Assembly (NCBI GenBank): GCA_963969365.1
Contig: OZ017748.1
Span: forward strand, 372,001 to 436,000
From: Asterochloris sp. CNOR1
Taxonomy: Eukaryota > Chlorophyta > Trebouxiophyceae > Trebouxiales > Trebouxiaceae
Direction: 5' to 3'
DNA: 64,000 nt
This document shows, piece after piece, positions 1,895 through 63,100 of this stretch; the stretch's first letter is position 1, and every line of letters starts with the position of its first letter. The notes below the pieces were generated by a model. The model was not told the DNA's origin and did no database searches. It worked only from the letters and a program-made list of their open reading frames with translations. A program made the position numbers and the translations under genes.

Positions 1895-4652
1895 TCAACA
1901 CACCTGCCACATGAAGGTAATGGAGCATGAACACAAACATTTGACAGCTTTGCTGACCTGAGGCACTCCAGCGGGCAGATCTGTTAGGTTCTTCAGCCCC
2001 GCTCTGCCAGCAGCCGTGGCACGCTTGCCACTAGCTGGTACCACTTCATCCCCAGCGAGCATCATGCCGATAGGCTGACACGTCAGGTAGATGGTCTCAT
2101 ACTGATCTGCCTTGACCCTGTAAGGCAGCAAACACAAGCAGCTGAATGCATGCAGTACTGACCAGAGATGCTCCCAACAGGCACACCTTTTAGGCTCTCT
2201 GGCCCTGCCCTGCCAGCAGCTGTGGTTGGCTTGCCACCGGCTGGCACCACCTTGTCCCCAACAAGCAACAGGCCAACAGGTGGCCCAGTCAGGCAGCAGG
2301 CGCAGCAAGAGAAGCAGCAAGCACAGGACACTTCCCATCAGCAGACACTGCACACTCTGAGGCAGCAGAAAGGCGCATAGCGCGTCTGCAAGGGGACGGC
2401 TGCAACCAAGGACAGGTCAGCGCTGCAAGTGCAGCAGCCAACGCAAAGCACAAGCTGTGAGTGCAGCGCAGCGTGATAGTCCAGCGCAGACATGCGGGGG
2501 GACAGCCAGCATTGGACTGGAGGAACTCGTGCAACGGTCGTGGCCAGGCTGGTGGCAGGGCAAACAGGGACGCTGCAGTGCAGCACTGCAGCAAGCTGCA
2601 GTGTCAAGCCAGTGCCAGTGCTGGTGATGCTGTGTTTTGCCCTGCTGCCAGTGAGTGCATGGCGGCACAGCACTGAGCGCTCACTGGTAACTCTCATGCC
2701 AGAGGCCGATGGTCTCGTCACGCGTGCGTGCCACCACCTTATTGTACTCAACCCAAGTAGGGAAGTGCAGGGCACTAGGTTTCCTGCACGTGAAGCGAGA
2801 GTGACTGACGAAGGAATGTCCACCTAACTGTGGGCAGAGAGATCATTGCTGCAATGAAGCTGGTTCTGCAGCCACACTGAAGACTGACCGTCAGTAGCTA
2901 CGTGAGCCGCTGTGCAGCCCAGCATCGTTCAGAAGTTGTTGAGTAGCAGCACCAACACAGGCAAGGATCTGACCTGTGGCTGTTGGACCCACGTGAGCAA
3001 CAAAGGGCCACTTTTGCAGCATGCAGCCTACACACCCTGACAGGGGACACACTGCTATACCTGCAGCATGTCATGCAGGGACACACGAGACGTCTCGGCT
3101 GCTCAAGCCCTCAAGGCGCCCATACAAAGGGCAGCTGCATGAGTGCAGCCTGCAGCATGAATGCTGGCAGACTCGCAGCAGTACAACGACTTGCAGTGGT
3201 TGAAGCTGCTACTGCAAGTGCATCATGCCAGTGAGTCAGCGCCAATGGCCATAAGCAGGTTTGCGAGGCTGCTGTTCCCGAGCTCAAAGAGTTGCAGCAG
3301 GCACACTGGCAATTAGATGCAGGGGGGCCATTGGCAGCGCCAGACAATGATGATCCTCACAGGAGGGAGACGAACGGCTTGGCAATGGTGGTCTACGGCA
3401 AGGGCATGCAGCCTCGCAGGGTCACAGTAGTGTTTCTGCCAGTCTGACAGCGGGGAGGCAGTACAGCCCAGTGAAGCTTACCTTGCCCATGCATTAAGGT
3501 GGTCTGCTGATCTCCAGTATTGCACGACGAGGCCTACAGTGCAGCCAGTGCGTCAGAACTTGCGGGGAGAGCATTGCTGAAGTGCTGCGCTGCCAGGGGA
3601 GCCTGCAATGCGCAGCAGCACGCGAGACAACAGGCAGGCGCAGAAAGAAAGCCTGGGCCCTCACCAAATTTCACCTGCCCTCCCAGAAACCCCACATCCT
3701 CTGGTGCCCTCTGCAGACCCTCAGCAGCAGTCAGGGCATCAGCTGCCAGCACACCATGAAGAGGCATTGCTTGGGCGACTGCCCAGCATTTGCTAGGCCT
3801 GCACATGTGCTCGATGCCAGTAATATGCTGGCGAGTCATGATTTGTTTGGGTCAGTTGCTTGTAACAGGTTCCAATCCAGTCATCTTGACTATGCCAGCT
3901 CAGCAGGCATTGCATGCATGCCCTGCAAGCCAATCTGACGGCCACATGCACCAAAATGCAACACTCCAGGCCTCACAGGCACACATGCAGAAGAGGGCAT
4001 GCACTGAATGTGCATCCAGGACAGCACTGCAGGCACCTCTGATGAACGTGCAGGGCACAAACTGAAACTTGGCAGTTCAGGGCAACAAGCGCCAGCTATG
4101 CTCCAGCACAACACCCCAGTCATGCCTTCCAGTCGATGCTGCATTGTCGGTGGTGCACACACCGCGAGCTCCCCCAGCATGCCCTGAAAAAGGTCGCCCA
4201 GCCTTTTGAAGCCAAAGAATCCTCTCGGCGAGTTCAGGTGGGCACCTATGATGAACACACAAAAGTCTCCACTGATGCGGCCACTCACACGGCCTGCAGT
4301 GCGCAAACACCAGTGTTCAGCATTCTATGATGTTTTGAGATGCATGCTCAAGCAGATCTGGGAAGAACCTGGCCTGAAGTGAATCAACCTGTGGCCGGGC
4401 CAAAGAGCAAAGGTTGTGCTGGAAGATTGCAGGCAAGGGTTTCAGGGGCTCTGAGGTGCACGATGCACCCTCTGCGGCAGCAGGGTCACCTGACGTCACC
4501 CCCTTCCTTGGCCCCAATCTTTCCTGCCTTGCTAAAGAACTGACTTGGTTGGTGTTCATTGCCTGCCGCAGCAGCGCCACAAAGAGGGTGGCGACGACAA
4601 CTACGGGAGTTGCCAAGACAGCCCCAAGGGCTGCCCATATAAAGGGGTGCAT
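1895..4652 (-). CDS. DUF4188 / af470-like monooxygenase family protein
   Basis: Six exons join with consistent phases: 4652-4490, 4293-4163, 3710-3665, 3533-3482, 2783-2685 and 2117-1895, giving 237 aa. The N-terminus has one membrane segment (Trp-Ala-Ala-Leu-Gly to Ala-Leu-Leu, residues about 5-28). The family body (PF13826) follows: a GDFCVFIIGAHLNSP strand, GFLGGQVKFG, VVQYWRSADHLNAWAR, then TIGLWHESY, then ADQYETIYLTCQPIG and a VVPASGKRATAAGR end. These match, in order, the blocks of DUF4188 proteins, a ferredoxin-like-fold family that includes fumagillin-pathway Af470. Substrate and true activity are unknown; the membrane anchor suggests an endomembrane or plastid-envelope site. The last 20 residues after the core are poorly conserved, and a further intron there cannot be excluded. 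It is divergent from the Dus gene. Confidence 0.85.
2169..2290 (-). repeat. Duplicate of the last DUF4188 exon inside the preceding intron
   Basis: This stretch reads, on the minus strand, PVGLLLVGDKVVPAGGK followed by TTAAGRAG. It is a clear relative of the true exon (PIGMMLAGDEVVPASGK, ATAAGRAG) that starts at 2117. The copy is open in frame and ends near a GTCAGT donor, but lacks the front of the exon (the YETIYLT part). It could be a decayed duplicate or an alternative exon. Confidence 0.8.
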
Positions 4653-4959: not shown

Positions 4960-7900
4960 ATGAGATTTGCAGCCACTGCAGCAGTGACTGCTCCAAGAGT
5001 GGACAACCCTACCTCCCAGCAGCCAGATGCAGATCGTGATGCGCTGTTGATCCAGGACCCTGCCAGCGGGAAGAAGCTGTTTGTCCCTGAGCCGATCAAG
5101 CCAGAGCAACTGAAGCGCAACCATGCCCTCACGGAGCGCATCCGTGGCAAGCTGGTGCTGGCTCCTCTGACCAAGTGCGCTGTGGGTTTGGCTAGCGTGC
5201 CCTGCTCTCAGCAGGCTGCTGCACAGCCGTGCAAACACCTCGCAACATAAAACGCCCCTGATGAGCCTGAGTCTGCCTGGCAGCATGCTGCTGCGGCTGC
5301 TGCAGAAGCATCTCTCTGAGACGAACTGCCCACAGCCTGCCTCATTCTGCCTGGCAGCATGCTGCTGCGGCAGCTGTAGGTTGCTGCACCAGCTGCCTAC
5401 AACTTGTCAGGCCGGCCCTGGATGCACGGCCACAATCCGCTTTGGTGTGAGCATGTTGCACTGTGACAGCCAAGCTGCAGCAGTGGCCTGCCAGGGCTCA
5501 GGCCAACAGTGGCGCCTGTTGTGTGCTCACACTATATGCCATCTGGTGCCATGCAGACTGCATGGTCTGAAGGGAGGCACAACCATTCTGCCCTCTTGCA
5601 GGCTGGTGGTGGTGCTGGCCTGCTTCCAGTGGCACCTTTTGCAGCTGTACAATATTTAAAGTTCTAGAGCTGAGGCTGTCTGCGCTGAATGCCAGATGTG
5701 ACTGCAGGGGCGGCAACCTCCCCATCAGGCGATTGAGTGCTGTCAGTTGACTGTGCTGCTGGACTCTCCTCAGCGTCAGCGCTCAGACCCACAGTGGCAC
5801 CAGCAGCCACATCAGTGGCCACTGCTGACCAGCTGACTTGCCTGCAGGGGTGGTAATTTGCCTTTCCGGCGCCTCTGCGCAGACTACGGGGCTGAGGTCA
5901 CCATGTCTGAGATGAGCTACGCGCGCCAGCTGATCAGGGGGAACCCTGTCGACCGTGCCCACATGCGGCAGGCTGAGAACGAGCACTGCTACGGTGAGCA
6001 ACCCTCTGGGAGGTTTTGAGGGGTGCTGGACGCTGGGGCATCTGGATGATAACCTGGGCTTTGGCTATTCCCGCAACGTGGCAAGCCTTTGAGGAAGTCT
6101 AGGCATAGGTATGAGCCGAGCTCATGAGGGCATCTTTGAGCATCGCGCCACCGGCAGAAGCAATGGGGGCAGACATCCTGAGCGGTATGACCCACTGAGT
6201 ACTCTGCGGTGGACTCTGGAAGTACTGAGAGGCGCATGCTGATGCTGTGTAGGTGTCACAGCTGCCACTTAGCATGCTGCCTTCCAGATGTGATGAAGGG
6301 CGCAGCGAGTTGTATACAATGGCACAGCAGTGATTGGAGCTGCATGGCAAGTCCAGGCTTGGTGCTCTGACCACCCAATCTGGACAGTGTTGTCTGCTGT
6401 GTTGTCTTGGCTCTGGTGTAGCAATTGAATGCCCTGGTTGTGCATATGGGGAGCCAGCTGCGGCCAGATGTTGTCGATACAACAAATGGGCAAACCTAGC
6501 ATGTGCTTGCTTTGACGCACAGTATCAAGGTTAGCTGCAGCATGTGTTTGCAGGCTTCCAGATCGCGACCAACCAAATCAGCGAGGGAGTGGCGGCCGCG
6601 AAGATGGCAGCCGAGAATGGCGCCAGCTGGCTGGACCTTAACTGCGGGTGCCCCATTCATGGTGAGTACGCCAGGGTGCCTGCAGCTGGCAGTGGCCGGA
6701 TGCAGAGCAGTGCCAGGTACGAAATGCAGGGCCCCATTCATGGCAAGCATGGCAGTGTGCTGTAGGGTGACAGAGCAGAAGCTGCATGCATTTCTTTTGG
6801 CCCAACCTTATCCAGCCCAGCAAATAAGGATGTGGGCCAGTCCTCTGCCCACCTATTCAGATAAGAGCAGTGCAATGACTGCATTGCTGTCACTGCTGTC
6901 CAAGCGATGATGGTTGTAGAAGGTTCGGGTCTCCCTAAAGAAGGCAGTCACAGGCATCCCAGATGTGGCAAGCCAGCACGATTGCCAAAAGGTGTGCCAG
7001 GTCGCAATGCTGCATTTCAGCTAAGCCTGGAAGGGCCTGCAGAGTTGGCAGGCCACAGCAGGCTTTAGCCTTTGTCGATGATGGGACAGCACTGATGTCT
7101 GTGTGCTGTGCAAGGCAGGAGGTCTGTGCCCATAACGCAAAAGGCGGTGTAAGAGTGACCTGGTTGTGCAGTACAGTCACGCGAGCCTGTGCAATCTTAC
7201 AAGCTTCTCAGAGATGTGACGCATATTGTTGCTCAGCTGCCCAGTCTCACCCTCCTCTTACAGGTCCAGCGCTTGTGCTTTGCAGAAGCAACCACACAGA
7301 GTTCTGGCGCAATTTCTGCTGTGCAAGCTCTGTCTATACACCTCTCAAAGGTCTGACGCTCATGCAAACGATGGAGGTCTGGACAGATTGTCTGCTGCGC
7401 AAACACAGTCCACAGACATCTCACAGGTCTAGCACATGCGTGCTGCACGGGCAAGCAACGGGGTTTGGGCGCAGTCCTGCTGCGCAAATAAGCATATCCA
7501 GTCCACAAAGATCTCACAGGACGCTTGTGCTGTGTAGAGGCAACCAAACGGGGTCTGGGCGCAGTCCTGCTGCGCAAGCCCCAGAAGCTGGCCCGTCTAG
7601 TTGCCAGAATAGCTGCGGACAGCCCAATCCCCTTCACGGTCAAGCTGCGCATCGGCACCGGCGAGAAAGGGTCCGACATTAATATCCTAGAGGTGTGCTC
7701 AGTTCTTGGCCGCCATTGTAGCTGCTGCATATGATTCTCAGCGCTTGTGTATGGCTGGCGTGCTCAGATGGTGCAGCTAGGTGCCGCAACCCCTCGAGAA
7801 ATCCTCAGGTTGCAGATGGTTGGGGGATGTTGTGCTCAGCGCCCAGACGGCTCGACACACCCACGCCCAGGGTTTGCCCAGCAGCTGCCTTGTGATCAGG

Positions 7901-10303
7901 GATGGCTAGCAGCACTGAGACTGCCTGACATGAGGCCATGCTGCTGCAAGTCACAGCCGGGCCCCCTGCACAGCAATGCCTTCAATAGATGAAACCTGTG
8001 CATGGCCAACCTCATGCTCCTGCAGCCCATCTGGGTATTGTGGCACAGAAGTTGCGTGCTGATCCTCTATGTCCTGCTCAGATGGGCTCCTTCCATCTGG
8101 AGGCACCTCAGGGCCCTTCACGGCTACGTGGTGTAGCCGCAGGCAGCTGAGCAGCTCAGTTGCCAGACTGGCCAGCCTGAAGCTGAAGCTGATGCTGATG
8201 CTGAGCTGCTGCCCAGGCCATTCCCTGCAAACTTTCTGGTGCTCCACTGAGACATGTAGGCAATGCTGTTCTGACATTGTACTGCGCTGCTCCAGAAAGT
8301 CGATTGCAGGCCAGAAACAGTGCTGACCTTTGCACTGCGTTGCTGCAGGTAGCCAGCGTACTGCAGCAAACGCGGCTGTCCTCCCTAAATCGCTTAGCAC
8401 CAGAGTGCCGCTGCATTGTTGCAGGTGGTGGAAAGCTTGCAGCAGGCAAGCCCTGCATTTGGCCATCATTTACAGGTGCACCATACAAGAGTCATGTGCT
8501 GACCTTGTACTGTGCTGCTGCAAACAATGAAGGTGCTCCAGCACACAAGGGCTGCCCTTCATGAGCCGGTCCTTGACTGGCTCTGCTGATGCAGGTCGTC
8601 GAGGCATTGCAGCAGACGGGCGCTGCGCTGATCACCATTCATGGGCGCACCATGCAGCAGGGGTACAGGAAAACCGCAGACTGGGATCTGATTGAGCAGG
8701 CGGCTGCCGCCAGCACCATCCCCATTGTAGGCAACGGCGACGTGCTGACGTACTATGAGGTGGGGACTCCTGGGCGCATAGCCAAGAAGAGCATGTGTAG
8801 TGAGCAGCTGGGGGGCAACCACAAAGCTGCAGATGCATGCTGGCGGCGCAGGCTCCTAAGCTGTTGTTTCTGGTCCCAACAGGGGGGGCCAACAGCATCA
8901 CTAGGCAGAACAGCGCCTGAAATCTACAGGAGTGTTGATGCAATGCAGCAGCTGAGCAGCAGCCGTCACGCGGACTAGAGCCTGCTCCTGCATGTGTATC
9001 AGGGCCAAGCAGCTTCTGCAGATGGAATCAAAGTTGTTGTGATGTTTTTTGAGCGCACCACTGGGTCAGATCCGCAGCAGCCCACTACTGGGTCACGCCC
9101 TGCCCTCCCGTTCTATGACCTGGCAAAGCAGCACCTGAAGATGTCTGCCTGCAGAGCCTCTGAGAACTCCCTCATCACACAGGGTGCACCATCTGCAGCC
9201 GTACAGCAGCAGCCATGCAACTGCTGCTGCTCGGCCCCTGCCAGCTTTAATCTCTCTGCATGCCCGCCTGCAGGCACAGCGCCGGCTTGCAGGAGGCTGT
9301 TTGGCAGTCCTGGTGGGGCGGGGCGCCCTAATAAAACCCTGGATCTGGCAGGAGCTGAGGGAGGGGCGTGAACTGCTGCCCACTGCTGCTGACCGCGTGG
9401 GCATCTACCGCCAGCTGGTGGCAAATATGAGGGCAGGCTTCGGGGATGATGCCCTGGGTGAGCCAATTGCAGTCGCTGCGGGATATGGGGGCAGGCAGTG
9501 GCCTGCATGCTTGCAGGCACTGGCAGCAGCAAGTTGTGTGAGCTGGGTGCAGTTGCCTACAAGCCTGCAGACACCGACAGGAATGCCATCAGTCAGAGCC
9601 CTGACGGACAGAGTCCTGAGTCAGCTCAGCAGCTAGGGGCTGCTATCAGCAAGCATGACCAAGGCTGTGCTGCTTCACGTCAGAAAGGGAGGCCTGCAGA
9701 ACATGTTCTTTCAGCAGAAGCAACTGTGCTGCTGCAGCAAAACATGTCTCAGCTTGTGCCCTGCACCGGCAGCACGCAGTGCAGCTGCATGACAGACAGG
9801 CAGCCTTGGCTGTATTGGATCTGACAACATGATTAAGCCTGCTGGCCATGTGTCATGCACTCCCTGACCCTGGTACACCAAGCAGTCTCCGTAAGATGTC
9901 ATCTTGTGGCCATTCTGTGATATATATTTGCGCTGCAGGCAAGCGCAAGGCTTGGCACTTCCTCCCGTGGCACTTCAACTGGTTCACTCGCTACCGCCCT
10001 CTGCCAAAGGAGGTATTCGAGGCCAAGTCCCAGCAGCATCCCCTGATTGCAACCCGAGTTGGCATTGCAGAGCCTGAGATAGGGGAGGATCTAGACAGCC
10101 TTCCCTTGCTGGAGCGGTTGCTGAGATGCCCCTGTGAGGATGCCTACGAGCCCATGGCCGAGGTACTTTGGGAGTCCTCTACCGATGCAGAGGCAGTCCA
10201 AGCCTTGGAGCGCCTGGCAGACCAGAACTTGACAACTTGGGAGGGCCTTGTTCAAAGTGGCACCTCAAGAAGCAGCTCGTCTTCAACGCAAGGATGGGGG
10301 TAA
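4960..10303 (+). CDS. tRNA-dihydrouridine synthase, Dus3-like
   Basis: FMN-dependent reduction of uridine to dihydrouridine in tRNA is the family role. Seven exons join in phase: 4960-5174, 5848-5993, 6554-6661, 7538-7692, 8595-8759, 9274-9457 and 9939-10303 (445 aa). Visible landmarks of the TIM barrel are KLVLAPLTKGGNLPFRRLC, GAEVTMSEMSYA, the phosphate/uracil-side LDLNCGCPIHEATKRG, FTVKLRIGTGEKG, ITIHGRTMQQGY, PIVGNGDVLTYYE and VLVGRGALIKPWIW. A helical C-terminal tRNA-recruitment part follows (FLPWHFNWFTRYRPLP). The CCCH zinc fingers found before the barrel in animal and plant DUS3 are absent from this model; the start is the first ATG of an open exon, so an upstream exon remains possible. 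The position of the catalytic Cys seen in DusA and DUS3L (G-x-G-C) holds Ala here (GLGAVLL), as in some Dus subfamilies. It converges on UTP7, 122 bp away. Confidence 0.9.
5708..5740 (+). repeat. Echo of Dus exon 2 start
   Basis: A CAG at 5705-5707 is followed by bases reading GGNLPIRRL and then a stop. The real exon starts the same way at 5848 (GGNLPFRRL). The copy sits 140 bp upstream, keeps the acceptor and loses the frame after about ten codons. Confidence 0.8.
6722..6755 (+). repeat. Echo of Dus exon 3 end with donor
   Basis: The 13 bases gccccattcatgg at the exon 3 donor (6650-6662) recur exactly at 6731-6743, 81 bp into the intron. The flanks on both sides are also similar, so the copy spans the exon end and the first intron bases. 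The GT of the donor has changed to CA. Confidence 0.75.
7276..7490 (+). repeat. Two echoes of Dus exon 4 start
   Basis: The first bases of exon 4 (7538-7577) recur at about 7449-7487, offset 90 bp, with the 17 bases gcagtcctgctgcgcaa identical. A more decayed copy with its own TGCAG acceptor lies at about 7281-7326. Together with the true exon they form a three-step ladder in which decay increases with distance. Confidence 0.85.
8349..8486 (+). repeat. Two echoes of Dus exon 5 start
   Basis: The true exon 5 begins at 8595 with VVEALQQTGAALITIHGRT. A copy at 8424-8486 begins VVESLQQ after a TTGCAG and aligns for about 60 bp. A second at 8349-8400 begins VASVLQQT after a CTGCAG. Neither keeps an open frame long enough to act as the full exon. 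Confidence 0.8.
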
Positions 10304-10425: not shown

Positions 10426-13400
10426 TCATCTGCGCACCCCCTTGTAGAACCTCTCCAGGGCCTTGGGGACGCCCTCTGGCACAGCGGCGGCTTCCCTCTC
10501 GGCCTTGGCTGCTCGCCGTTTTGCTTCTTCATCCATGCGCTGCTGAACCTGCCCCTTGCGCTCCTCAATGATATTTGTCTGCTTCTTACGATGCCGCTTG
10601 CTGGGCCTGTTCTTGCCCTGCAAATCAAACGTGAAGCAGATTGTGATGACAGTCTTCCAAGATGTTAAGTTTCCTAAAATTAGGACACATATGAGCTGCT
10701 TGACCCAGGGCAATGCCCAGATGACAAGGTCCTCAAATGAAGGGCGTTGCCGCATGCCAGCGGGCATCTTGTGTGTAAGTGGTCAAAGTGCTTGGAGATG
10801 AGAGCCACTCGGGACCTGTGTATTGCCCATCTGACAGATTCATGCTCAAAAAGAAGCATCTCAATCACCAAATCTTTTTAGGGCCTGCCCTTTCTCTGCT
10901 TGGTGAACACCCTATCTGGATGAAAGCCACATGCGTCAGCCAGCTATCCCTGAATCACTGCACAGCCAGCCTTGGCTGACAGGAAGGTGCAAACATGAGC
11001 CATCTCCGCTGAGACAAGTAGTAGCCCTGCCAGGATCTCTGTGGCTTGCAGCAGGCTGCATATCTTCCTTGACCACCCAACTTCAGGACGCCCTCAGCAG
11101 CAGCTTCTCTCACCTTCATCTTGGCCTTGGACTCGTTCTTGTCCCGCTGCTGCTTGCGCCGCGCCCTCTCAGCCTCCTCCTGCTGGGCGCGGCGCTCAGC
11201 CTGCACCTCCCGGGGCTCCTTCTGGACCTGCAGCACATCATAAAGCTTACGCCTAGAGTTGATAAAAGCTACAAATCTCCTGCTGGGCGCAGCACTCAGC
11301 CTGCACCTCCCAGGGCTCACACATGATCAGCCAGACAGGTCACTCCCAGAAGTTTACCCACCCAGTGACAGTCAGGTGCAGAATGGTCATAGCCAAGGCT
11401 GCCACCTCCCACACTCCGCTTGCCGCATCTCGCCAAGTGGACAGCTCCGTTGTGCTGAGTGACTTACCTGCCTCATGGTACTGGGGTCCAGAATGGTTAT
11501 CTCTGGCTTAAGGTAAAACTCACAGCTTTCTGCAAAGCCTTGAACCCTGTGCAAGCCAGACTCCTCCGCAGGTGACGAAGGTTGTGGCAGAAGTGCAATG
11601 CCAAAGCGCCAGCTGGGCGGCTCACCTGGCCGATGGTGGTGGGGTCCAGGACGATCATCTCGGGCTTCAGCTTGTCCAGCAGCTGGTGCACCTCCTGCTC
11701 CTGCCGGGCACGCTTGCCCTGGAAGGGGTCGGCCACGTAGCTGTCAAAGTTGGGCTCGCCGGCGCCGGGAACCAGCATGGTGCTGATGCCCCCGGTGTGG
11801 CCCACGGCCAACACGTCCTGCAGGGGATGGGAGTGCATTCGTTTCTTAATCTAACTACATTGAGTGGTGGTGGCATCTTAGTGGCTGGTTGGGTTTGTGC
11901 AGAAGTCTGCTGAGTAGACTGGGACCAGAGTGTTATTTGCGTCACCAGTCTGCTGGGCAGCCAGCACCAGACAGCCAGGGAGAGGTGCGTGCTGTAAAGC
12001 AGCACCAATGTGAAGGCTTGCCCTGGAAAAGGTTTACCACCTAGCTGCTGCAGTTGAGATCTCCTCTGTGCCACAGCACAAAGATGATACCACTACAGTA
12101 GCCAAAAGCCATGAAGTCCTGCACAAGCTGGGTGCAATGCAGAATCGGCGGCATCTCATGCAATACCGCGGCAGCGTGTCCTGCCTGGGCGCCTGCCACA
12201 GAGGGCCTGTTGCATGCGTGCTTGGCTACAGCATTTATGGAGCCCATTTTCAGCACACAGCGCTACCCAACTTGCTGCAGATAATTGATCCCACCTCGTA
12301 AGGGCAGAACTGAAAGTCTCGGAGGGCTCCGCCCAGCAGGGTGTGGCTCAGGTAGGGCGCTGCCTGCTTGCGCGCCAGGGCATCCCGCCACACCGACACC
12401 TTGCGCCCCCAGCCCACTGCCAGCATCCCCCGCTGGCTTATGTCGCACCACTCGGCCGGGGCGCGCGAGAAGTAGGAGTGCAAGGGCTTGAAGGTGCGCA
12501 GGTCCCACACGCAGACCTGGGAGTCGGTGCCGGTCGTCACCAGGTGGCGCCCTGTTACATCTGCTGCCAGGGACTTGACAGACCCCTGCACACGCAGAAA
12601 GAAAGGCACGTTGATATGTGAGGCGCCTATGCTTCGGCACATGAGCAAGTGCATAGAGTGCACTGGGCCATTTGCCACCGAAACTTTGACAGGCCCCTGC
12701 AGAGGCAGGACTGGGTGCAAATGTGGCATAGCACACAGCAGCCACTGGTATAGTCTCCAAAAGGTGGCGCACTGTTGTGTCAGCACTATTGTGTCAGATG
12801 CCGAAGACTGATGGGGCTCTGCAGGCAGACAGGCAAGACAAGTCAGGCTTCAAGTATAGGTAGGAGGAGTGCCCCATAACACATAGTATGGTACCCATAG
12901 ACTGATGTAAATGTGCCAAGGCCATGACCAAGGTCTGTAGAGGCTGGAAGGAAGGTAACCTCAGCAAAACAAGAGTCTGCGCTTGCAGCCACCAGGTGGT
13001 GCCCACAGCATCTGCTGACTTGATCCCGGGGACCTGCAAAAGGGCAGGTTTCTGCTCAGCCAATTGTGGAAGCGAGGGCCCTGCAGGAGAAGGGAGGGCT
13101 GCTCAGCTAGTGCAAGTGTCCAGCAGTGGTCCCCTGCTGCCAGGTGAGAGGCATTGGGCAGCCCGCCTATGGCGCAAGTTTCATGGCCCAAAGTTAGGTG
13201 CAATAGGATATGTCGCCCACTGTGATGGACTTTTGTGGCTAGGAGAACCCTGCAAGCTTCCTTGTCCACCTCAGGATGCAAGAGACTTCAGATCTACTCT
13301 TTGATGCCCATTTCATCGCTATGAGCAACACCCCCAGACGTGAACTGAGATCTCCTCAGACTTGATCGACTAACTGTCCAAATTTCCTGGCCTCACCCTG

Positions 13401-16400
13401 TGCACCAGCATCTTGACGAGGGGTGTTCCTGTGTTGGGCGCCCACATGGTGACGGTGCCATTGGCGTGCCCCAGCAGACTGACTCCGTTGTAGGGATTGT
13501 GCCGCAGCACGTCGCAGGGGCCCATCTTGGTCTTGTGCTGCGCCACAATGTGACCGGTGCTGGTGTCCTGCAGAGAGCAGGGGAGGACAGCAGTTATGGT
13601 TAGAGAAATGGTGTGGACACTTGCAGGCGGGCGGCTTGGCCTGCTTGTCTGTGCTGCGCCACAGTGTGTCCAGTGCAGGGGAGGGACATGTCTGTGCAGG
13701 GTGCAAGCACTCTGCAGGTGTGCAAAGCTGCCTGCATGTCTGCCCATCCTTGCTGGCAATGTGCACGCTGGTCTTCGAGCCTGACGAGGGGAGTGCAGCG
13801 AGGGGAGTGCAGCTTGTGTGCTGCCGCGCAATGTGGCCAATGCAGGGCAGGGCAGTGGCTCTGCAGGGGGATGGTGCAATCACTCTGCAGGTGCGCAGGC
13901 TGGCTGCAGCCCAAGCAGCTTCTGTGTTGTGCCGCAGTGTGGCCAGTGGGGGGCTGCAGGGTGCAGAGGATGAGGATTGCTGTGCATGGTGGTGGTGAAA
14001 GCACTCTGCAGCCCACAACCCACAAGCCGCCAGGAAGGGTCAGAAGCCAAGCGTCCTGAGACTAGTTGTTTCACTTGGAGGTGCGTGTTTGATCGGCACA
14101 CAGGGATCCCCCTCAAATGAGTTGGCGTCATCACACCCCTGCAATGCTCCTTGTGGATGCTAGGTGTGGCTATGAGGTTACCCACCTGAAGGCTACAAGC
14201 GAAATACATTGATGGCAGGGCAGGGCATTGATGATGACAACCCACAACCCACAAGCCACCAGGAAGGGTCAGATGCCAAGCGTCCTGAGACTGGTCATTT
14301 CACTCAGAGGTGCGTGTTTGATCGGCACGCAGGGTTCCCCCTCAATTGAGTTGGCGTCATCACACCCCATGCATGGCACTCTGTGCTTGCTGATGCGGCT
14401 TGACACATCTTGCGGGGACGGGCCAGCTGACCTGATACCTCAACACGCCCTGAGCACCAACTGAAGTCAGCAGGAAGTGATGGGGCAGGAAGTCGAGTCG
14501 CCGCGTGTCTGTATGGTCCTGCACACCCAGCGAGAAAGACTTTTTACATTCAATGAACAAAGCAGAGACTTTTAGGAAAGAAAAGAAAGTGCCCAGACAG
14601 CAGAGGACAGCCTTGTCAGTCTGCTCCTCCAGATGACTGGGCACTGCTGAGGAGCAGCTCTGTCAGCCAAGATTGCCCCCAGAAACAAAGGCAAGCAGGA
14701 GTCCAGCACCACAGCTGTGTCCCCACGGTGCAGGCCAGCTTCACGTGACAGTGCAGGGTGGCAGGCTCGACCACTCTACACAGGCCAGCACGAGCACTTG
14801 GGCAGGCTGCCAAAGCAGAGCAGTTGCATGAACTTTTGTCCCATGCAGAGCAGCTGCACGGACCCTTTGTCCTGCAGCACACTGTGTCCTCTTACAGCCC
14901 CTCATGACAGTGCAGGGTGGGCTGCCTATCCCTGCAGAGCTGCATCGGAGGCCAGCAGGGATATGGGGTTCAGGGTTTAGGGTGGGCACTGGGGAGGCAA
15001 GCAGGCTGTCAGTGTACCGACAGCCCTCAGCTCACAAGTTTGGGAACGCTGCTGTGAACGCAGCATGTACGAGGTTGCTTTTGTGGCTCAAGCAGCTAGA
15101 GGCAGCCATGCAATAAGCCTGTCTTTTACAGCTCACCCTAATCAGTGCACCTATAGCTTGCGCTTCATTGCAGTTGTTCATGCATCACTATTGCTCTCCA
15201 CTACAATGTAGGCCCTCCCTCCCCCCAGACAACCCACCCTGATCTTGTTTACATTACATCCATCATTCCAGCTCATGAACATCCGCCCCAATCTCACCCT
15301 TAAACAGTGGACCTCTAGCCCACGCTTGTCATAGATGTACACATATTTCTTCTGAGCAGCCGCAAAGAACTGCTCGTTGTGCAGGAACTGGACGTCCCTC
15401 ACTGTCTCCTTTACCTGCAGCAGGAGTTAGTGGGTGGGCTGGTGCAGCAGAGGCATGCAGTAAGTGGGCCTCCTGCATTGACTTCTTCTGCTGCAGCAGA
15501 TTGAACCTGCAGTTCCAGTCGCTCTACGCCTACACCATGCAGAAGGTATCATGCTGTGCCAGTTCACGAGCCACTGTCGCATCTTGTGGCCTCCCAAGCA
15601 GGCCAGAAAAAGTCACGCTCCAATCACTGCCGTTTCATGTAGTCAAGAGCTGCTGTTGCCCATGACTTGCAGAAGGTGTGCCTGTTCTGCCAGTCCATGA
15701 CTCCAGGTGCCCCTTGCGGGCAACATGCGCCAGTGCTGCTCCACGTCTTCAGCAGAAAACGCCTCTCAAGGCATCGGCGCTTTCCTGTAGCGCCCCTGAG
15801 CTCCTGTGCCCTCAATACTCTCACCTGAATTTCGCTGAAGGTCTGTTCGCTCTACCGCTCCTTTCCTCTCTCCCTTCTCTTGCTTCAGCCTGGGCACACT
15901 CTGGCCCACACACACCCTCAAGTCCTACTTGACGCTCAACACAAAGGGGTCCCACCTGAACTTCGCAGAAGGTGTGCCCGGTCTGCCACTCCATCAACCC
16001 CAGATGGCCCTTGCGCCCGCCGATGAGCAAATGGCGCCCGCTGCGGCTGAAGTCTAGGTTGTAGGGTCCCAAACCCTCGAGGCGCAGGTCAAAGGCCTTT
16101 CGTGCTGCGCCGGCCTCTGCCTCTTGCACCAGAGCTTCCTGCAGCAGGGTTCAGGGTTTCAGGTAGGGGCATCAGCTTGTGCACATGCGTGAATTCTGCA
16201 GGTGTGAGGCAGCGCCTGAGTTGCACCACTGCCTTGCTGGAGTCCAGAGAGGTGACATGCTGCTTGAGTGGGGCAGAGATGTGCCCGGCTGTCAGGCACA
16301 CAATTGTATCACGGCTCATGCAAGGTGCATGTTGGACACTGCACTGAAGATCGCCAATGACCTCTAACTTCAGATCCGCAGCCTCTGCTAGCAGCAGATC

Positions 16401-17610
16401 CCTGCCAACAGCTCAGACTGTGACATGGTGCCCTGCATAATCCCACATCACTAGGAAAGGTGAAAAGGTATGTCCTCTTATGCTGAGATGGCAGAACAGT
16501 GATAGCAAGTGTCCTTTTCCGCTGGACGCGCCAGGTCGGGTGCGCGCCCACTGCATCTAGAGCCCAAGCAGCAGCTCCTGGCAGGAGCAACATCCAAAGC
16601 GTCAGTACCCTTGTCCAACCCCGCTGGAAGTGGGGCAGATGCCCACCTGCTGGAAGCGCCACGTCTGCTCCATGCCCTCTGCCTCCAGGCCCCCGGCCTC
16701 TGCTGGCAGCAGCCACTCCTCAGCACGGGCTGCTGCCTCTGCAGCCTCCTGAGCCAAGCGCTCAACATGCTGCAGGCGCCCCTTGAGCTTCTTGTCAGCA
16801 ATCTGCAGCCAGGCACAGCCTTGCTGGGGACGCTCTGGGGCTGTTGGGGGCAGTCTGCAGGGCACCTGAGATGCGTAAGCGCGTTCAAGTTTCTTGTTGT
16901 CAAAAGTCAGGTACGTAAGCTGCAGAACGGGCGGCAGCTCGCAGGTCAAGCCCTCTGTTCGCAGGCCGCCAGCGGCGACCTGTCAACATCCTGTCAGCAG
17001 AGTTGCAGTGGCACCAGGCGGCTACTTTGCTGCATGCTTGCCACCAGCAGGGCCCCTTCAGTAGTCCTGATGCAGGGATGTGCCACATCTGCTGAGTTTC
17101 TGTGCACAGCAGCTGCAGGGCATGCCAGCAAACTCCACGTCTGCTGTCTGCACACAAGCAGCAGCTGCAGGGCTTGCAGACAGGTGCCATGAGAGCCATG
17201 CGTGCTGCTGCAAGTCGAAGCACAGACAGCTGTAGCAGGCAATGACCAAACTCCCTTGGCAGTGGTCACAGTTTCATTCTGACAGCCTGGTTTTACAAAT
17301 GGCGCACCTGCTTGGTGTGCACCCCATCCCCTCGCTTGAACTTGGCCACCTTCTGTGCCAGTGCCTTGCTCTGCCGTTTCCTGCATGCAGAGGGATTGGG
17401 GTGTTCTGCATGGTAGTGGCACCTCTTCCCGTCTGCATGTTGGGGAACACCTGATCACAGCATGTGAGCAGCCGCTGATCAGCACCTCTTTGAACCAGCT
17501 GCCGCCTCCTCAGTGGTGTCTGCTCCAGGTTGTGTCCTGAGTTGATCCACCTGGGCCGCCTCCTCATCAGTATCTGATCCTGAGAGGTCCTGTTGCTGTG
17601 GCCGCAGCAT
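10426..17610 (-). CDS. UTP7: UTP7/WDR46 WD40 protein of the small-subunit processome
   Basis: A U3 snoRNP component needed for 18S rRNA maturation in the nucleolus. Eleven exons join in phase: 17610-17486, 17380-17308, 16802-16647, 16138-15956, 15414-15298, 14518-14432, 13567-13397, 12585-12295, 11817-11626, 11227-11114 and 10617-10426 (566 aa). The N-terminus is acidic ([13 protein letters not shown]) then basic ([20 protein letters not shown]), a likely nuclear signal. Family blocks follow: ADKKLKGRL, a coiled segment, [87 protein letters not shown] repeats with [11 protein letters not shown], then [21 protein letters not shown] and [11 protein letters not shown]. The tail is charged ([21 protein letters not shown]), typical of the BING4/Utp7 C-terminal domain. 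The ATG is the only one that opens the acidic exon and has CACC before it. Confidence 0.95.
11278..11320. repeat. Echo of UTP7 exon 10 start
   Basis: About 40 bp of exon 10 (11178-11220) recur with only a few changes exactly 100 bp further upstream in transcript terms. This is one of the youngest echoes in the window. Confidence 0.9.
11365..11512. repeat. Two echoes of UTP7 exon 9 end with donor
   Basis: The last 45 or so bases of exon 9 plus its donor (11621-11670) recur at 11463-11512, offset 158 bp and roughly three quarters identical. On the minus strand this reads [15 protein letters not shown] then GTAAGT, an intact donor. The true exon reads [16 protein letters not shown] fainter copy lies at 11365-11400. 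Confidence 0.85.
12655..12705. repeat. Echo of UTP7 exon 8 start
   Basis: Minus strand: CTGCAG then bases reading [11 protein letters not shown]. The true exon (from 12585) starts [12 protein letters not shown]. The offset is about 111 bp and the acceptor is intact. Confidence 0.75.
13645..13944. repeat. Three-step echo ladder of UTP7 exon 7
   Basis: The segment coding GHIVAQHKT in exon 7 (13529-13555) recurs at 13645-13671, 13812-13838 and 13918-13944. Spacings are 116, 167 and 106 bp. The core tgtgctgcgccacaatgtg is kept with a few changes in each, while the frames differ. The copies make the intron look like a 220-codon open frame on the minus strand. Confidence 0.85.
14012..14378. repeat. 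Young direct repeat inside UTP7 intron 6
   Basis: About 130 bp at 14012-14140 recur at 14241-14369, offset 229 bp, with only scattered changes. Shared stretches include gtgcgtgtttgatcggcac and gagttggcgtcatcacaccc. No exon is included, so this shows that the same local duplication also acts on pure intron. Confidence 0.9.
15536..15855. repeat. Echoes of UTP7 exon 4 end
   Basis: The end of exon 4 (minus strand [18 protein letters not shown], to 15956) recurs downstream in transcript order. The copies are at 15828-15852 with an intact CAG/GTGAGA donor, at about 15665-15740, and more faintly at 15536-15580. The frame is lost in all copies. Confidence 0.75.
16877..16910. repeat. Echo of UTP7 exon 3 start
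   Basis: Minus strand reads [12 protein letters not shown] followed by a GTGCCC. The true exon 3 start reads [10 protein letters not shown]. The copy is about 100 bp upstream of it in transcript order. Confidence 0.6.
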
Positions 17611-17949: not shown

Positions 17950-20900
17950 GTGTTCAGTTGCAAGCCAAGACCGAGATCTGTGTATGTAGATCATGCACTG
18001 CTCGCTGCTCCTGCTGCATATGATGCTCATGCTGAAAAAAGTGGTGCTCTGCAGAGCAACTTTGACATCCCCCTCTTTGACAGGGAGAGCGAGCAGGAGC
18101 TCTTGCTGAAGCGGCTCATGGCCAGGCCAGACAACATCATGCTAATCCTGGGTCCTCAGAGTAGCGGCAAGACCCGGCTGCTGCGAGAACTACTTCTGGG
18201 GCTAAGCTAAATGCCCCCGTGTCGTGGATCAATGGACGCAGCCAGAAACTCTCAGATGGCCGCGTCATGTCCCAGGTGCTGAATGCGGAGCTCAATGTGC
18301 AGAAGCATGCCCTGAAGGAGTTCAAAAGAGGAAACAGCTATGCATCGCAAGGGCCTGCCAGAATATCGTTGGGCGCTCGTCAGCGGAAGCTGCAGATGTA
18401 CCGAGCCGAAGTGGTCAGCATCACTGTTTTGATTCTGGCTTACAATAAGCTGATCAACGACCAAGGGCCGCTTCAGGCTCCTGGCCTATGATCTGCATTG
18501 ATGAAGCAGATGTGCTCATGAGGTGGGTCAGAGGAGGGCCTGACATGGACGAGGACTTGAATGCACTCCTGCGCTTTTTTGTGCAGGTGAGCTGTCAAAC
18601 ACTTTGTACTGTGCTGCCTCCACTGTGCTTTGTGTTCCGTGTGCTGATCAAGGTGGCTGCTAGCTGGCCCTTGAGGGGCCTCCACTCTTGTGCAGATTAC
18701 AAAAGAGATGCCGAAAGCCTACGTCACACTGGCCACCTCAGACTTCAGCGTCCTCACATGGCTGCAAGCCAGTGAGCCCTTTGCGCCCTTTAGTCTGCAG
18801 CCATGGCCTCAAAGCAGCTCATCTCTGTCGCTGCATGCGGAGCTCCGGGATGACTTATTTAGATGTGAGGTAATTGGTGACTTTCCTGAGACAGAGGCCC
18901 GCACCTTCCTTCAGCATGTCGTGGGCAAGCTTCCTAGCGTAGAGAATGACTGGGAGTCAATGCACCCAGACGAGGACCAATACTGGTCATCGTGGTCGGA
19001 GTCAACCCCGCAGTGGGTCATGGGCGGACCTTTCGCTGATCAGGATTGGGCTCATATCAACGAGGTGCGTTCCAACTAAGCTTCCTTGTCACCCGCTACC
19101 AGAGACTCATGTGCAGGTGCCTGATGGCTTGCATCATATTTGTGGCAATGTTTCATGTTGGCTCCTACAGTAATCTAGTCCGATACATCTACAGGTGTGT
19201 GGTGGAAATGTTGGCTTCTTGATCAGCACTGCCTCTTTATTTGAGGGGGAGTGGGGCAAAGGTGGGTGATGCACCCAACGCCTGCTGGCGGCTGGCGCTG
19301 TTCTCCAGTCTGCATGCCTGGGCGGCTGTAGCGCCCAGTGTTGCTTCATGCTACACTGGACGCTACAACGGCTGCTGGCATTGCTGCCTCATTACATGTG
19401 CCATGCTGCAGCCTTGTGCAAGATCTGGGCGCTTCCCATGAACATTGTATCTTAGGGTCTTGCCGGCGGCCCTGGCTGGAGTAGAGGACAGTATGCATTG
19501 GTGGTGGACCGCCTGGCAAAGGCCCCCTTTGGTGCTGTCATTGCTGAGGACCTGTACGCAAAGCTGGAGTCTGCTTGGGAAGCTGCTGAGGAGGTTGTTG
19601 AGGCCATGGCGCAGGCTAGAGTGGTGGCCTACCGTCCAGCTTCAGGTGGGCACCAGTTTGTTGGGAGATGTTGCTTGCTGTGGGTGCAGTGGAGCACTGC
19701 ACTTCAACCTCAGGCACCCTGCTGTGCAGACTGGGCTAACGACATCCCAGTGGAGGCGTTTGGCCCCGTTCGGCAGGAAGTGGTTACTGCACCCACAGCC
19801 ACACACCTGTATTGCATGCGGCGCCTGCAGAAGCGCGGTCCCCTGAAGAAAGTTGCTGAGGTGAGCCAGTGATGACGGCCGTGGGAGAGGCAGGTACACC
19901 TGGAGGCCCGCACTTGAAGGACATTCCTGATGGAGGCGTTTGGCCCAAATCAGCAGGACGTGGTGACTGCACCCTCAGCCCCACACCTGTTTTGCATGTG
20001 TTGCTTGCAGGAGCAGGGTGCCTTGAAGAAGGCTGCGGAGGTAAGCCAGTAATGACAGGGGTGGGGGAAGGTGGCTGCACCTGGAGGCCCGCAGTCTCAG
20101 GGACATTGCAAAGGAGGCCTTGGGCCCAGAACAGGAAGATTTGGTGGCAGCTCCTTCAGCCACATGCTTGCACTTCACGTGAGTCTTGCCTGAGGATAGA
20201 TCCCGTTCGCATGGTCACGGGTCACGTCAAGCGGCCTTGCAAAGCAAGTGTTGTCATGTTCCTCAGCTGCTCACATAGGAAGCCAGTGCAAATGATAGAG
20301 GTGTAGCAGGCACGCTTGCACAGCATCGCTGCCCCTGAAGGCATGCTTCTGTCAGACTGATGGCTGAGGTGAACAGCCAGTGACATGTTGTGTATGGTTC
20401 TGTAGGTGAAGTCAGGCCAAGCCCGTGCCAATTGTTGCTGTATGGCTTCATGGCATCTGAGTTGTTGCAGCTGCTAGTGATGGTGCAGATCGACTACTGC
20501 AGGCAGCATTTCCTTGCATTCAGTGCTGCATGGTTTTGTGGAGGCCTTCGGCCCGAGGCAACAGGATGTTGTGACCAAGTGCAACCCTCAGCCACACACC
20601 TGTGCTGCATGCACATCACGCTTGAAGGTGGCAGGCACTGAGGTGCCCAGCTAGAGATGGTGGTATGCGAGGCTGCTGTCTGTTCTGAGACTCCATACAT
20701 TCATTGCTGAACTTTCAGGGTGCTGCTGATGGTGTCTGTGCTCTGTTGCAGGCAGTGTACATTACACCAGCTGCTGCTTCAGACCTCTCCCAGCTGGACC
20801 GGCAGATCATGGATTTGAACTGCCAGATCAGCTCGATGGTAGTTGACATCTCGTACCTGGACCAGCAGACTGATTATGTGGATAGCCAAATCAGCATGGT

Positions 20901-21111
20901 GATAAGAAAAGGCAAGGAGATGCACAGCACCAAGCCAGACGGCTGGGAGAATGAGATTGCGTACCTGCATGAGAAGGAAAGGCAGCTGCGTGAGAACAAG
21001 AAGCAGCTTTGTGAGGAGGGGCGGCAGCTGCGTGAGGAGGAGCAGCAGCTGTGTGAGGAGGAGCTGAAGCTGCGTGAGGAGCTCCTGCTGCTGCGCAAGT
21101 CAGACACTTGA
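17950..21111 (+). CDS. P-loop ATPase (archaeal-type ATPase-like) with coiled-coil tail, frame-broken
   Basis: A nucleotide-binding exon reads FDRESEQELLLKRL then the Walker A LILGPQSSGKTRLLREL. Walker B is MICIDEADVLMRW, followed by sensor-like TKEMPKAYVTLATSDFSVL, a GDFPETEARTFL block and VCGGNVGFL. This order resembles the PF01637-like STAND ATPases. Exon ends with good splice sites are at 18584, 18691, 19456-19647 and 19729-19860. The last exon (about 20753-21111) codes a Glu/Leu/Gln-rich coiled coil (QLREN, QLCEEG, QLREEE repeats) and ends in TGA. The frame shifts by one base at about 18200 (before AKLNAPVSWING) and again at about 18485 (before Walker B), and the join into 19456 is out of phase. 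It may be a pseudogene, or the sequence may contain errors. No in-frame ATG was found before the P-loop exon. Function is unknown. Confidence 0.6.
19729..20640 (+). repeat. Four-copy ladder of an ATPase exon
   Basis: The exon coding DIPVEAFGPVRQEVVTAPTA (19729-19860, donor GTGAGCCAG) recurs at 19916-20051 with an intact GTAAGCCAG donor. More decayed copies follow at 20098-20180 and 20526-20640. Spacings are about 185, 180 and 430 bp. The first copy covers the whole exon and shows the same codons in places, but has gained changes in acceptor and frame. Confidence 0.9.
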
Positions 21112-52816: not shown

Positions 52817-52859
52817 CTTAAAGTTTTCGAAGCATTGTAGCGTAGGGTGCTGTCAAAGA

Positions 52860-53970: not shown

Positions 53971-53972
53971 TC

Positions 53973-55058: not shown

Positions 55059-55103
55059 GCACAGCTTTGGGTTTCTTCGAGCCTAGCACGCGTTATCTTG
55101 GCC

Positions 55104-60100: not shown

Positions 60101-63100
60101 TCCGACTTGCCCGCTGCGGCTGCATCCAGCTGTGCCTGCACCGGCAGTGGCACCTGGGTAGGGCTGTGCCAGATGCACCACTTGGAGGCACTGGTGCAGG
60201 CGCTGGCTGTTTGATTATATCCCATTTTCAGGACCCAGTCACTAATTGATCTGGCCGGGCTGTCGTGTGTGTGTGTTGGCTTGCAAATGCATGCAATGTG
60301 GGGCTGAATTGGCTGCAGGGAGAGCCCCACGCAGCTTGCTGCTCGCAGGACACAGCGGAGAGGCGAGGAAGCACCTGCAGCACGCAGTAATCAATGGCTG
60401 GCTGCGTCTCAATTGCAGCTGCTAACTGTCTTCCTGCAGCCTCACTTGCAGCTGGCTGACAGTCTTCCTGGCTTGGCGCCCCTCAGTGAACGCCCTGGCC
60501 AGGTCAGCATGCAGCTCAGACTCTGTGTGCTGCAGCTCCTCAACAGTCAGCTCCAGCTTCAGCACCTGCAGGATCGATGATTGTGTTACACAAGGAGATG
60601 CAGCTTGTGGATGATGAGTTCATAGCCTGACGACCTGCTGAGAGCGTCGCTGAGAGGGAGCAGGTCGTCCCTCAGGTGGCATGCAGCATCAGGTACACAG
60701 GAACAGCATTAACTCATGCCGTCACTAACACAACACAAAGTAGCACACATTGCAAGCTGGGCCATATGCCAAGGTGACCATTCTGGAATCCGCCAAACGA
60801 TGATGGGTGGTACGAGCAGGCCACCGTGCCGGGGTTGGCCAGAGATTCACCTGCTTGATGAGTAGCTGCTTCTGGCACTCCAGGCGCTCCGTCTGCTCCC
60901 TGTAGTGGGTCAGCGCCTGCTGCAGCTGCTGCACGTCCTTCTGCAGGGAGGACTGCAGCTGCTGCAGCTCCCGCTGTTGCCTGCACAGTCACCACACCCC
61001 ACCAGAGTCAGCTGCTGCACATACTCAGGGGCCATTCTGCAGCAACTTCAGCTGCTGCCTACACCACAGCCATGCCATGAAGAGCACACAAGACTCACAA
61101 CCCAACCATGCAGTTTGATTGGGCAGCTGCTACGGAGCTTCTGCAGAGATGGCGACACCTGCTGCGCACCAGCAGCACTGGATTGCAAGCAACCAACAGT
61201 GATTGCTCAAGCCTTCAGCAAGCTTCGAAAGCACATATGGATGCAACTGAGCAGCAAGCAGAAATGGCATGACTTTTGCATGCCTGTTCTTTCCAGGACC
61301 AAGTTCAAGCAGCCACACTGCTCCTGAGCGCAATTCGCCTGCGGCATGCCGTCAAAAAGCTGCACCCATCTTCTCAAATGCTGCACCCCAGAAGTCCGCC
61401 TCGCCTGCTGCCCCTGCAGCGCCTGCGTAAGGGCACTTCTCAGACATCTAGAGACATTCACCTGGCCTGCAGCTCCCTCACCGCCTGCGCATGGGCACCC
61501 CTCAGAGATTTCTGACACCCACCTAGCCTGCAGCTCCCTCAGCGCCTGTGCATGGGCATTCCTCAGCACCTCGACCTGACATTCGCCTGCTTCCTCAGCT
61601 GCCCACTGCCCAACCTCTGGACTCCTCCCCGCTGACAAGGCACGTCGGCTGCTGCTGGCAGTGTCTGCAGGGCTGGTGCCCATAAACTCAGGTGGCCTGG
61701 CATAGGCAGCCGCCGCCCTGTCGGCAGCCCGCCCTGCTGAGCCAGCAGACTGGGCAGGCCCAGCTGTTGTCGTGCCAGCGCTCGCCAGAGTCCCCTCCGC
61801 ATGCAGGCCTGCCTTGTCCAGCAGGGCGGCAGGAGCATCTGCCAATCGCTGGGACCTGTTGTGTGCTGAGGAGCGACGCAGGGGCCCATTGAGGCTGCAG
61901 CGCTGCTGGCGGCCCCTACCCCTGATGGGGCTGCTCTGCCGCTGGGGGCTGTTCTCCTTCTCCCCTGAGTCCAGGATGACTGTGGAGGCAAGGCTGCAGC
62001 CAGAAAGACCAGACGCTGAGGTAGACAAGGAAGTGATTGGGTTTGCTGCTGAGGGCTGCCCCTCAAGTGCCGGAGAACTTTGCAGGAAGACTCATACATA
62101 CACAACAGACACTGGGATGTGCTGTAGGGGTCTGTTGTCACTGTGTCCCAGGTCAAGGTTGACTGTAGAGGCGCGGCTGCAGTCAGACAAGACAGAAACT
62201 GAGGAAGGCAGGGCTGTCAATTCAAGACTAGCCACTGGCAGCTCTTTTGCATGTTGCCCGCGTGCAGAATGGATCTGGAGGCAGGGCTGCAGCCATACAG
62301 CAGGGACTGAGCTTTTGGCTGCAAGCAGGGCTGCAGCTACGACGCCAAAACAAAGCCCTGCAAGGAAACAGGGCTGGAGCCACACGACGAAAAATTGAAC
62401 ATTTTCTGAAGGTATGACTGCAGCTGCACAACAAACTCGAAGCCCTGCATGCAGGCATCCAAACATGCAAGCCTTGCTGGCAGCAGCCCCGACAGAGTCA
62501 TGACTTAGTGCAACAGTTAGCTCAAACGGGCACATTGTGCTTACTCATCACTGCCATGACAAGCAGGCTTAGCGCATGTTGAGCACGCCCAACTCAATTT
62601 ATATCAGTGCAAAGCATTTGCAGCAGATCTCTCACCTGCTGGGAGCAGGGCTGCCGGGCTCAGTCCCTTCAGCGCTGCCTTCATCAACGTCACCCGCCTG
62701 GCTCTCATCAGGCTTGGAGGACTTCTCAGCCCCAGGGTTCTGCTCGTCGGCAGGCGGCGAGGCCAGGAGCAGGCTGCTGCAGCACCCCTCGTGGTCAGGC
62801 GTGCCCATCAACACCACATCATCTGGGTCCCCTTCTGGCCCCAAGCTGACATCTAGCTGCACAGGCTGCAGCCTGGGCGGTAGGGGTGCACTGGCTTGCG
62901 GCCGCGGCTCTGCAGCTGCAGACGGCGTCGTGAGCCTGTCGACTGCGGCCGGACGCTGCTGGCCAGAGCTGGGCTGAGGGGAGGAATCTGACCAGGGACT
63001 GCCAGGCTGGGCCAGGTCGCCCCTCAGGGCAAAGGGCTCGCTGAGGCTGCTCAGCGCAAGCTGGTGCGGGCCAGGCCGCTCTGCTGTGTCCTGCAGGTAC

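Follow-up and report, generated by a model that had tools for sequence, protein, structure and literature searches.

Worn copies of exon edges in Asterochloris introns, probably left by mostly old, local duplications of non-coding DNA

The window, the whole 64,000-nucleotide stretch of Asterochloris sp. CNOR1 DNA analysed here (contig OZ017748.1, positions 372,001 to 436,000), belongs to an assembly of 56.4 Mb in 21 contigs (GCA_963969365.1) and was sampled together with 18 other 10-kb regions, one each on 18 contigs. It carries a gene with PF13826, which we take to be the former DUF4188, a gene with a Dus domain, a UTP7 gene, an ATPase-like open reading frame with sub-threshold ATPase_2/AAA_16 matches, a large gene with no Pfam match in the 725 residues scanned and a gene carrying PF11995/DUF3490, presumably a kinesin-associated label, with no PF00225 motor match within the window. 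The best match of the UTP7 protein is jgi/Astpho2/3549, with differences at 3 of 529 residues, and its spliced alignment to the window gave eleven exons, the first of which (14 bases, GC donor) is doubtful. By this protein the alga is near A. glomerata. A 21-bp periodic repeat at 20965-21095, Glu-rich and coiled-coil-like, lies within a predicted coding exon.

A sequence-only reading of the window had described degraded copies of exon edges in the flanking introns under six gene labels. Pairs at or near exon edges are indeed present under all six, although the pair near the ATPase-like open reading frame (19751-20068) sits in the separately predicted next gene and its exon assignment is uncertain. 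The features are as follows.

2174-2296, minus strand: copy of the PF13826 exon region 1968-2090 (73%, offset 206; exon read by eye)
5684-5731, plus strand: weak copy of the Dus acceptor edge 5824-5871 (67%, score 16)
6731-6760, plus strand: copy of the Dus donor edge 6650-6679
7270-7311, plus strand: Dus acceptor edge, copy 3 (79%, offset 252)
7345-7402, plus strand: Dus acceptor edge, copy 2 (sequence alignment, ends approximate)
7457-7487, plus strand: Dus acceptor edge, copy 1 (97% over 31 bp, offset 90)
7538-7692, plus strand: Dus exon, preceded by three copies of its acceptor edge (gene finder, Dus domain)
8417-8456, plus strand: copy of the Dus acceptor edge 8587-8626
11277-11318, minus strand: copy of the UTP7 exon part 11177-11218, from 9 bp inside the exon (93%)
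11454-11512, minus strand: donor-side copy of the UTP7 exon end 11612-11670
12016-12064, minus strand: copy of the UTP7 exon part 11712-11760, off the very edge (offset 304)
12686-12708, minus strand: acceptor-side copy of the UTP7 exon start 12575-12597
13397-13567, minus strand: UTP7 exon whose start is copied three times upstream (spliced protein alignment)
13650-13679, minus strand: copy of the UTP7 acceptor edge at 13567 (offset 116)
13817-13846, minus strand: copy of the same edge (offset 283)
13921-13953, minus strand: further copy of the same edge (matches the 13650 copy at offset 273; aligned with the exon)
14238-14400, minus strand: partner of 14009-14171 in an intron-intron pair (core 131 bp at 92%; unrelated spacer)
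15136-15165, minus strand: donor-side copy of the UTP7 exon end 15298-15327 (score 16)
15456-15499, minus strand: acceptor-side copy of the UTP7 exon start 15380-15423
15819-15861, minus strand: donor-side copy of the UTP7 exon end 15950-15992, with CAG/GTGAGA
15669-15698, minus strand: another donor-side copy from that exon end (offset 296)
16521-16576, minus strand: donor-side copy of the UTP7 exon end 16649-16704
16357-16397, minus strand: second donor-side copy, of the UTP7 exon part 16672-16712
19931-20068, plus strand: copy of 19751-19888, with a weaker third at 20102-20177 (80%, offset 180; exon assignment uncertain)
26521-26622, minus strand: copy of the large-gene acceptor edge 26323-26424, with a further one at 26663-26707 (exon 26397-26233, gene finder)
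29453-29494, minus strand: copy of the large-gene acceptor edge 29372-29413, with a second at 29633-29669
32267-32329, minus strand: copy of a large-gene exon segment, 32461-32523, that stops 27 bp short of the donor border (exon 32682-32434)
36087-36170, minus strand: donor-side copy of the large-gene exon end 36292-36375, with a second at 35915-35982 (exon 36595-36294, gene finder)
39624-39677, minus strand: donor-side copy of the large-gene exon end 39763-39816
40648-40734, minus strand: copy of the large-gene acceptor edge 40527-40613 (exon 40579-40420, gene finder)
41914-41978, minus strand: copy of the large-gene acceptor edge 41799-41863 (86%; exon 41832-41728, gene finder)
62120-62213, minus strand: copy of the DUF3490-gene acceptor edge 61937-62030, with a second at 62231-62300

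The clearest ladder is that of the Dus gene, in which the three copies and the exon start at 7538 form a four-unit array with units of roughly 90 bp. In the UTP7 copy at 11277-11318, each of the three differences from the exon is a C-to-T change at a CpG, the T being that of the copy. The strongest repeat of the window (131 bp, 92%, the 14009/14238 pair), which is the sole one searched genome-wide, occurs at two places only in the 56 Mb, both local, and with just two genomic copies and an unrelated spacer it does not make a repeat family, nor is it a simple tandem duplication. Hence, as far as this repeat goes, there is no sign of a dispersed family, in agreement with the earlier distinction of these copies from introners.

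Two sets of exons were used. The homology-defined exons are those of 20 kinesin genes (Pfam PF00225 exon matches) and of UTP7, and 63 kinesin introns, less 2 with a weak splice score, together with 9 from UTP7 gave 70 introns and 140 borders. All other exon models are predictions of a small gene finder trained on the kinesin and UTP7 genes and re-trained on its own calls; its accuracy is known from its training genes alone, before re-training (56/59 kinesin introns and 9/11 UTP7 exons exact), and it still yields some 2-bp exons, the adjoining introns of which are lost from the counts. From the 337 introns predicted in the window and the 18 regions, 198 were set aside because the flanking exons were weak or the gene score was low, and 139 were kept, with enough intron for testing at 264 of 278 borders. 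The combined set holds 200 introns, 139 predicted and 61 homology-defined. GC donors were assigned, by score and not by RNA, in 6 of the 63 kinesin introns (L024, L025, L029, L030, L035 and L036); their usual frequency is roughly one percent. For the published Asterochloris genome, 9 introns per gene are given, with genes of 4240 bp and mRNAs of 1400 bp (PMC6652019).

Local same-orientation similarity was scanned without annotation, pairs being scored +1/-1 with a threshold of at least 17. The window displays 74 pairs at offsets of 15-315 bp and 11 at 315-615 bp, against 1, 0 and 2 in the far-offset controls (615-915, 1500-1800 and 3000-3300 bp), while the 18 other regions display 146 and 29 pairs in the same two near ranges against 3, 3 and 1 at far offsets. 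When the 20 kinesin regions are added, direct pairs amount to 264 at 15-315 bp compared to 4 at 1.5-1.8 kb, the kinesin regions being only 2.0-4.5 kb long and hence offering fewer far positions for the control; in the same material inverted pairs show no excess (6 near, 4 far). A local, direct-only excess is therefore present in every part of the genome sampled, and the copies lie close together in the same orientation, as is expected of local tandem duplication.

At each exon border, the match to its own intron was compared with 200 length-matched intron pieces from other genes or loci. In the homology set 31 of 140 borders beat all 200 pieces from other genes (0.7 expected), 13/70 on the donor and 18/70 on the acceptor side, and in the predicted set, where the pieces came from other loci, the own intron matched better than every one of the 200 at 49 of 264 borders (1.3 expected), with 14 of 62 in the window alone. 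About one exon border in five thus has a decayed duplicate in the intron beside it, and the copies seen by the sequence-only reading are real, since exon-edge matches exceed these non-adjacent intron controls. At least one copied border was found in 43 of the 139 predicted introns, and these come from 14 of the 18 sources that contributed introns to the kept set. Moreover, the copies are specific to their own intron: at z of at least 4, the own intron matches at 42/264 borders and the far-side intron of the same exon at 2/184. In the combined set, direct copies beating 100 controls occur at 73/386 borders, inverted ones at 4/386 (3.8 expected), and copies of exon interiors at 6/156 (1.5 expected). 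Using length-matched controls, copied borders make up 0/12 in introns below 150 bp, 1/38 at 150-250 bp, 4/66 at 250-350 bp, 12/60 at 350-500 bp, 19/56 at 500-800 bp and 13/32 above 800 bp, a rise with intron length that agrees with intron growth.

The 200 introns contain 76 pairs between an exon edge and the intron, 34 intron-intron pairs and 14 others. Copies exist on both sides, as had been claimed, with 33 donor and 43 acceptor pairs, and the spacing, which had been put mostly at 80-230 bp, was about right, the 76 border pairs having a median offset of 137 bp and a 5-95% range of 80-470 bp. The match crosses the border or comes within 3 bp of it in 36/43 acceptor and 22/33 donor pairs, as would be expected of duplication running from exon into intron. 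The splice-site bases were said to be usually included, and indeed the splice dinucleotide is spanned by 46 of the 76 pairs and kept in 33 of these 46 (AG in 24/32 acceptor copies, GT in 9/14 donor copies). At a score of at least 17, one copy is found at 44 borders, two at 13 and three at 2. Border pairs show a mean identity of 0.80 and a mean length of 43 bp, and intron-intron pairs are the same in both respects. A change was observed at 81 of 231 CpG sites and at 491 of 2364 other sites, and this higher change at CpG agrees with free decay of the intron copy. The claim that decay grows with distance did not hold, given a Spearman coefficient of -0.10 (P = 0.39) and a nearest copy that is the best one in 10 of 15 ladders. 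For the genes used in training (the UTP7 gene of the window and L020-L039), introns have a CpG observed/expected ratio of 0.31 and exons one of 0.54; these values suggest CpG decay, with methylation as perhaps its cause.

The window and the 18 other regions contain 4 pairs of at least 90% identity over at least 40 bp, 13 at 85-90% over at least 40 bp and 109 at 75-85% over at least 30 bp. This age comparison excludes pairs with an offset below 30 bp and arrays of more than 1.8 units (the young L013 68-bp array and a few short tandem pairs, such as those of L018 and L006). A simulation with a constant rate gives 441 pairs of the most similar class per 620 in the two less similar classes; the 4 observed, beside 168 less similar pairs, are to be compared with about 119 predicted, a figure that counts one pair per simulated event, where a real one sometimes gives several, and that could be halved for this reason. 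Loss of young duplicates is ruled out as the cause, since under a constant birth rate numbers only fall with age. The shortage of young pairs may come either from a falling rate or from collapse of young tandem copies in the assembly. Steady growth of introns is not supported, long young pairs being almost absent, and the duplication events appear to be mostly old. Among the few young tandem arrays is the one at L013 545-744, with 68-bp units that are 97% identical.

A fit of event ages serves as an illustration only. Indeed, the simulated detection of intron-intron pairs at K>0.3 is 0.00-0.02 and yet 34 such pairs were observed, so that the age model is wrong in detail, and these pairs argue against every event being as old as the fit would have it. 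It is possible, and we put it forward tentatively, that a genome-wide pulse of local duplication, now nearly at an end, once produced much of the length of the introns; the recognised pairs would then be what survives of about four times more events, an estimate that depends on the model.

We then have to ask why exon borders stand out. Pairs per million position pairs amount to 1.83 for intron-intron, 1.56 for intergenic or unannotated, 2.56 for exon-intron and 2.30 for intron-exon positions. If splicing- or transcription-linked breaks duplicated DNA specifically across exon-intron borders, one would expect what is seen in the 73/386 borders against 6/156 exon interiors and in the 76 border against 34 intron-intron pairs. 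However, random placement alone gives as much: 0.63 of the tolerated duplications in a simulation of random tandem events span a border, and the border share among the detectable, neutral ones is 0.76-0.79. The observed share, 76/110 = 0.69 (95% CI 0.60-0.78), is not above the simulated one, hence a border-directed process is unnecessary. Furthermore, pairs in intergenic or unannotated DNA have much the same frequency as those in introns, and selection would purge duplications inside exons, so that we find border-directed breaks very improbable. Placement independent of exon borders is what local tandem duplication leads one to expect, and exon edges are conspicuous because one of the two copies is held by selection. 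Of the growth of introns by duplication at their borders, as first proposed, the local and direct copies on both sides and the length trend stand, but a mode specific to borders or introns does not, given the similar rate in intergenic or unannotated DNA and a border share no higher than under random placement.

A head-to-tail arrangement is clear in the Dus gene and in the near-intact tandem pairs of L008 (6918-7038/7037-7157) and L003 (7127-7186/7192-7253). At 75-85% identity, the match fills a median of 0.26-0.34 of the offset, and simulated tandems of neutral age K 0.2-0.4 have an identity of 0.79-0.80, a length of 43-60 bp and a fill of 0.31-0.43; at 85-90% identity the observed median is 0.23 versus 0.63-0.90 for simulated tandems. 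Similarity over the rest of the unit was detected in 38 of 118 pairs (119 entered, one without a testable side), about a tenth being expected by chance, and simulation gives 0.43-0.45 at K 0.2-0.4 and 49/96, 51/84 and 87/122 over all ages. For pairs of at least 85% identity it was detected in 10/24, versus 0.53 simulated. The match depth into the exon has a median of 34 bp on the acceptor and 37 bp on the donor side, compared to 49-56 bp in the simulations. Age accounts for most of the missing unit similarity, yet it does not cover several pairs of high identity whose spacers are unrelated (11177/11277, 41799/41914 and 14009/14238 among them). The low fill and the unrelated spacers of such pairs, below what simulated tandem units show, would suit templated insertions or spaced partial duplications, in which nearby DNA, exon edges included, is copied into intron breaks in an arrangement other than head to tail, and non-tandem duplications from within 200 bp have been reported in rice (PMC7407515). 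Yet for copies templated during repair either orientation, direct or inverted, is described (PMC7407515), with an inverted exon copy as an instance (PMC2671141), whereas inverted copies are at chance here (6 versus 4 in the scan, 4/386 at borders), and most matches include the border. The unrelated spacers were dropped as a sign of templated insertion, given that the lack of inverted copies and the simulations favour old tandem duplication, though imperfectly, and we regard templated insertion as unlikely. The copies might also be functional, as decoy or alternative exon edges under selection or as alternative-splicing relics of whole-exon duplication, which would be in line with the AG kept in 24/32 and the GT in 9/14 and with identities that pile up at 0.75-0.85. 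However, the neutral expectation at 0.78-0.82 identity per base is about 19-20/32 for AG and 9/14 for GT, hence AG retention is just slightly above neutral; moreover, the copies are incomplete, their identity and length are matched by those of intron-intron pairs, and they display CpG decay, which leaves hardly any credence for a function.

The exon-edge copies are thus probably explained by short in-place duplications throughout non-coding DNA, mainly head to tail and mostly old. Short stretches would be duplicated in place, mainly head to tail, with offsets mostly of about 95-260 bp. A duplication within an intron or across a single splice site would not alter the protein, provided that splicing takes place at the exon-proximal site, while it would lengthen the intron and turn one copy of the exon edge into intron sequence. 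The intron copy would decay freely, fastest at CpG, whereas selection would hold the exon copy, and it is for this reason that, in simulation, pairs at exon edges can be recognised for about twice as long as those lying wholly within introns. A machinery directed to borders would be dispensable. We infer a tandem origin in most cases, as well as neutrality; the molecular cause may be duplication while staggered breaks are joined, or replication slippage.

On close direct repeats and short paired duplications in eukaryotes, Thomas et al. 2004, Achaz et al. 2001 and Messer and Arndt 2007 are said to describe an excess of short same-strand close pairs, reportedly with no framing as exon-edge ladders and no algal introns, and the pairs described here are likewise short, same-strand and in excess at short distance. 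Patch-mediated double-strand break repair is reportedly the subject of Vaughn and Bennetzen 2014, from recent differences between rice genomes. Natural rice insertions of 10-1000 bp are described as tandem or partly tandem, or as non-tandem from within 200 bp of the break (PMC7407515). The copies of Asterochloris resemble them as local tandem or partly tandem duplications, but are mostly decayed, were counted at exon edges and include hardly any long young ones. In primates, the repair-mediated proximal duplications of Pace et al. 2009 are local duplicates of up to 619 bp, with splice sites among the copied sequence, an activity that falls with time, a mean spacing of 1.2 kb and at least one inverted exon copy, tandem cases (within 50 bp) being excluded (PMC2671141), whereas the copies here are direct only, with their median offset of 137 bp. 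Intron gain by tandem genomic duplication, where a duplicated AGGT in an exon gives a new intron (PMC3443670, PMC2891723), likewise involves an in-gene tandem duplication with a splice site in the unit, but here existing introns lengthen, and pairs joining a donor border to an acceptor border are 0 of the 14 left-over pairs (200 introns, offsets up to 600 bp).

Tandem exon duplication also leaves exon-like copies within introns; it concerns whole exons, some of them expressed, with copies found by aligning exons to their own gene, and exonic nucleotides with a copy of at least 80% make up 0.08% in fly, 0.06% in worm and about 2% in human (PMC9013439). Here the share is 1.5% by another method (963/62554, up to 300 bp from a border, an exon flanked by two introns being counted for each) and the copies are mostly partial edges rather than whole exons. 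At L012 6198-6987, pairs at offsets of 387-401 bp over predicted exon sequence (86-91%) probably represent a whole-exon tandem duplication, a likely exception. Unlike introners, which form a dispersed near-identical family, the copied borders match their own intron better than all sampled introns of other genes or loci (31/140 and 49/264 borders), and unlike templated insertion, theta-mediated or by strand annealing, which gives inverted as well as direct copies, they show inverted ones at chance. In the literature covered, with most subscription papers outside its scope, we found no account of introns growing through copies of exon edges, whether in Asterochloris or another alga, and such copies go unmentioned where the Asterochloris genome paper (PMC6652019) deals with introns, exons, tandem arrangement or duplication and where a Trebouxia genome paper deals with the first three. 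The process itself is known; its density at algal exon edges and the age skew were not found described.

Given that AG or GT is kept in many copies, these findings are a warning for gene predictors. Furthermore, exon edges act as preserved reference copies, each border being a small clock for the local duplication adjoining it, and with sister genomes the timing and the speed of intron lengthening would become measurable in a lineage in which introns make up most of the length of a gene.
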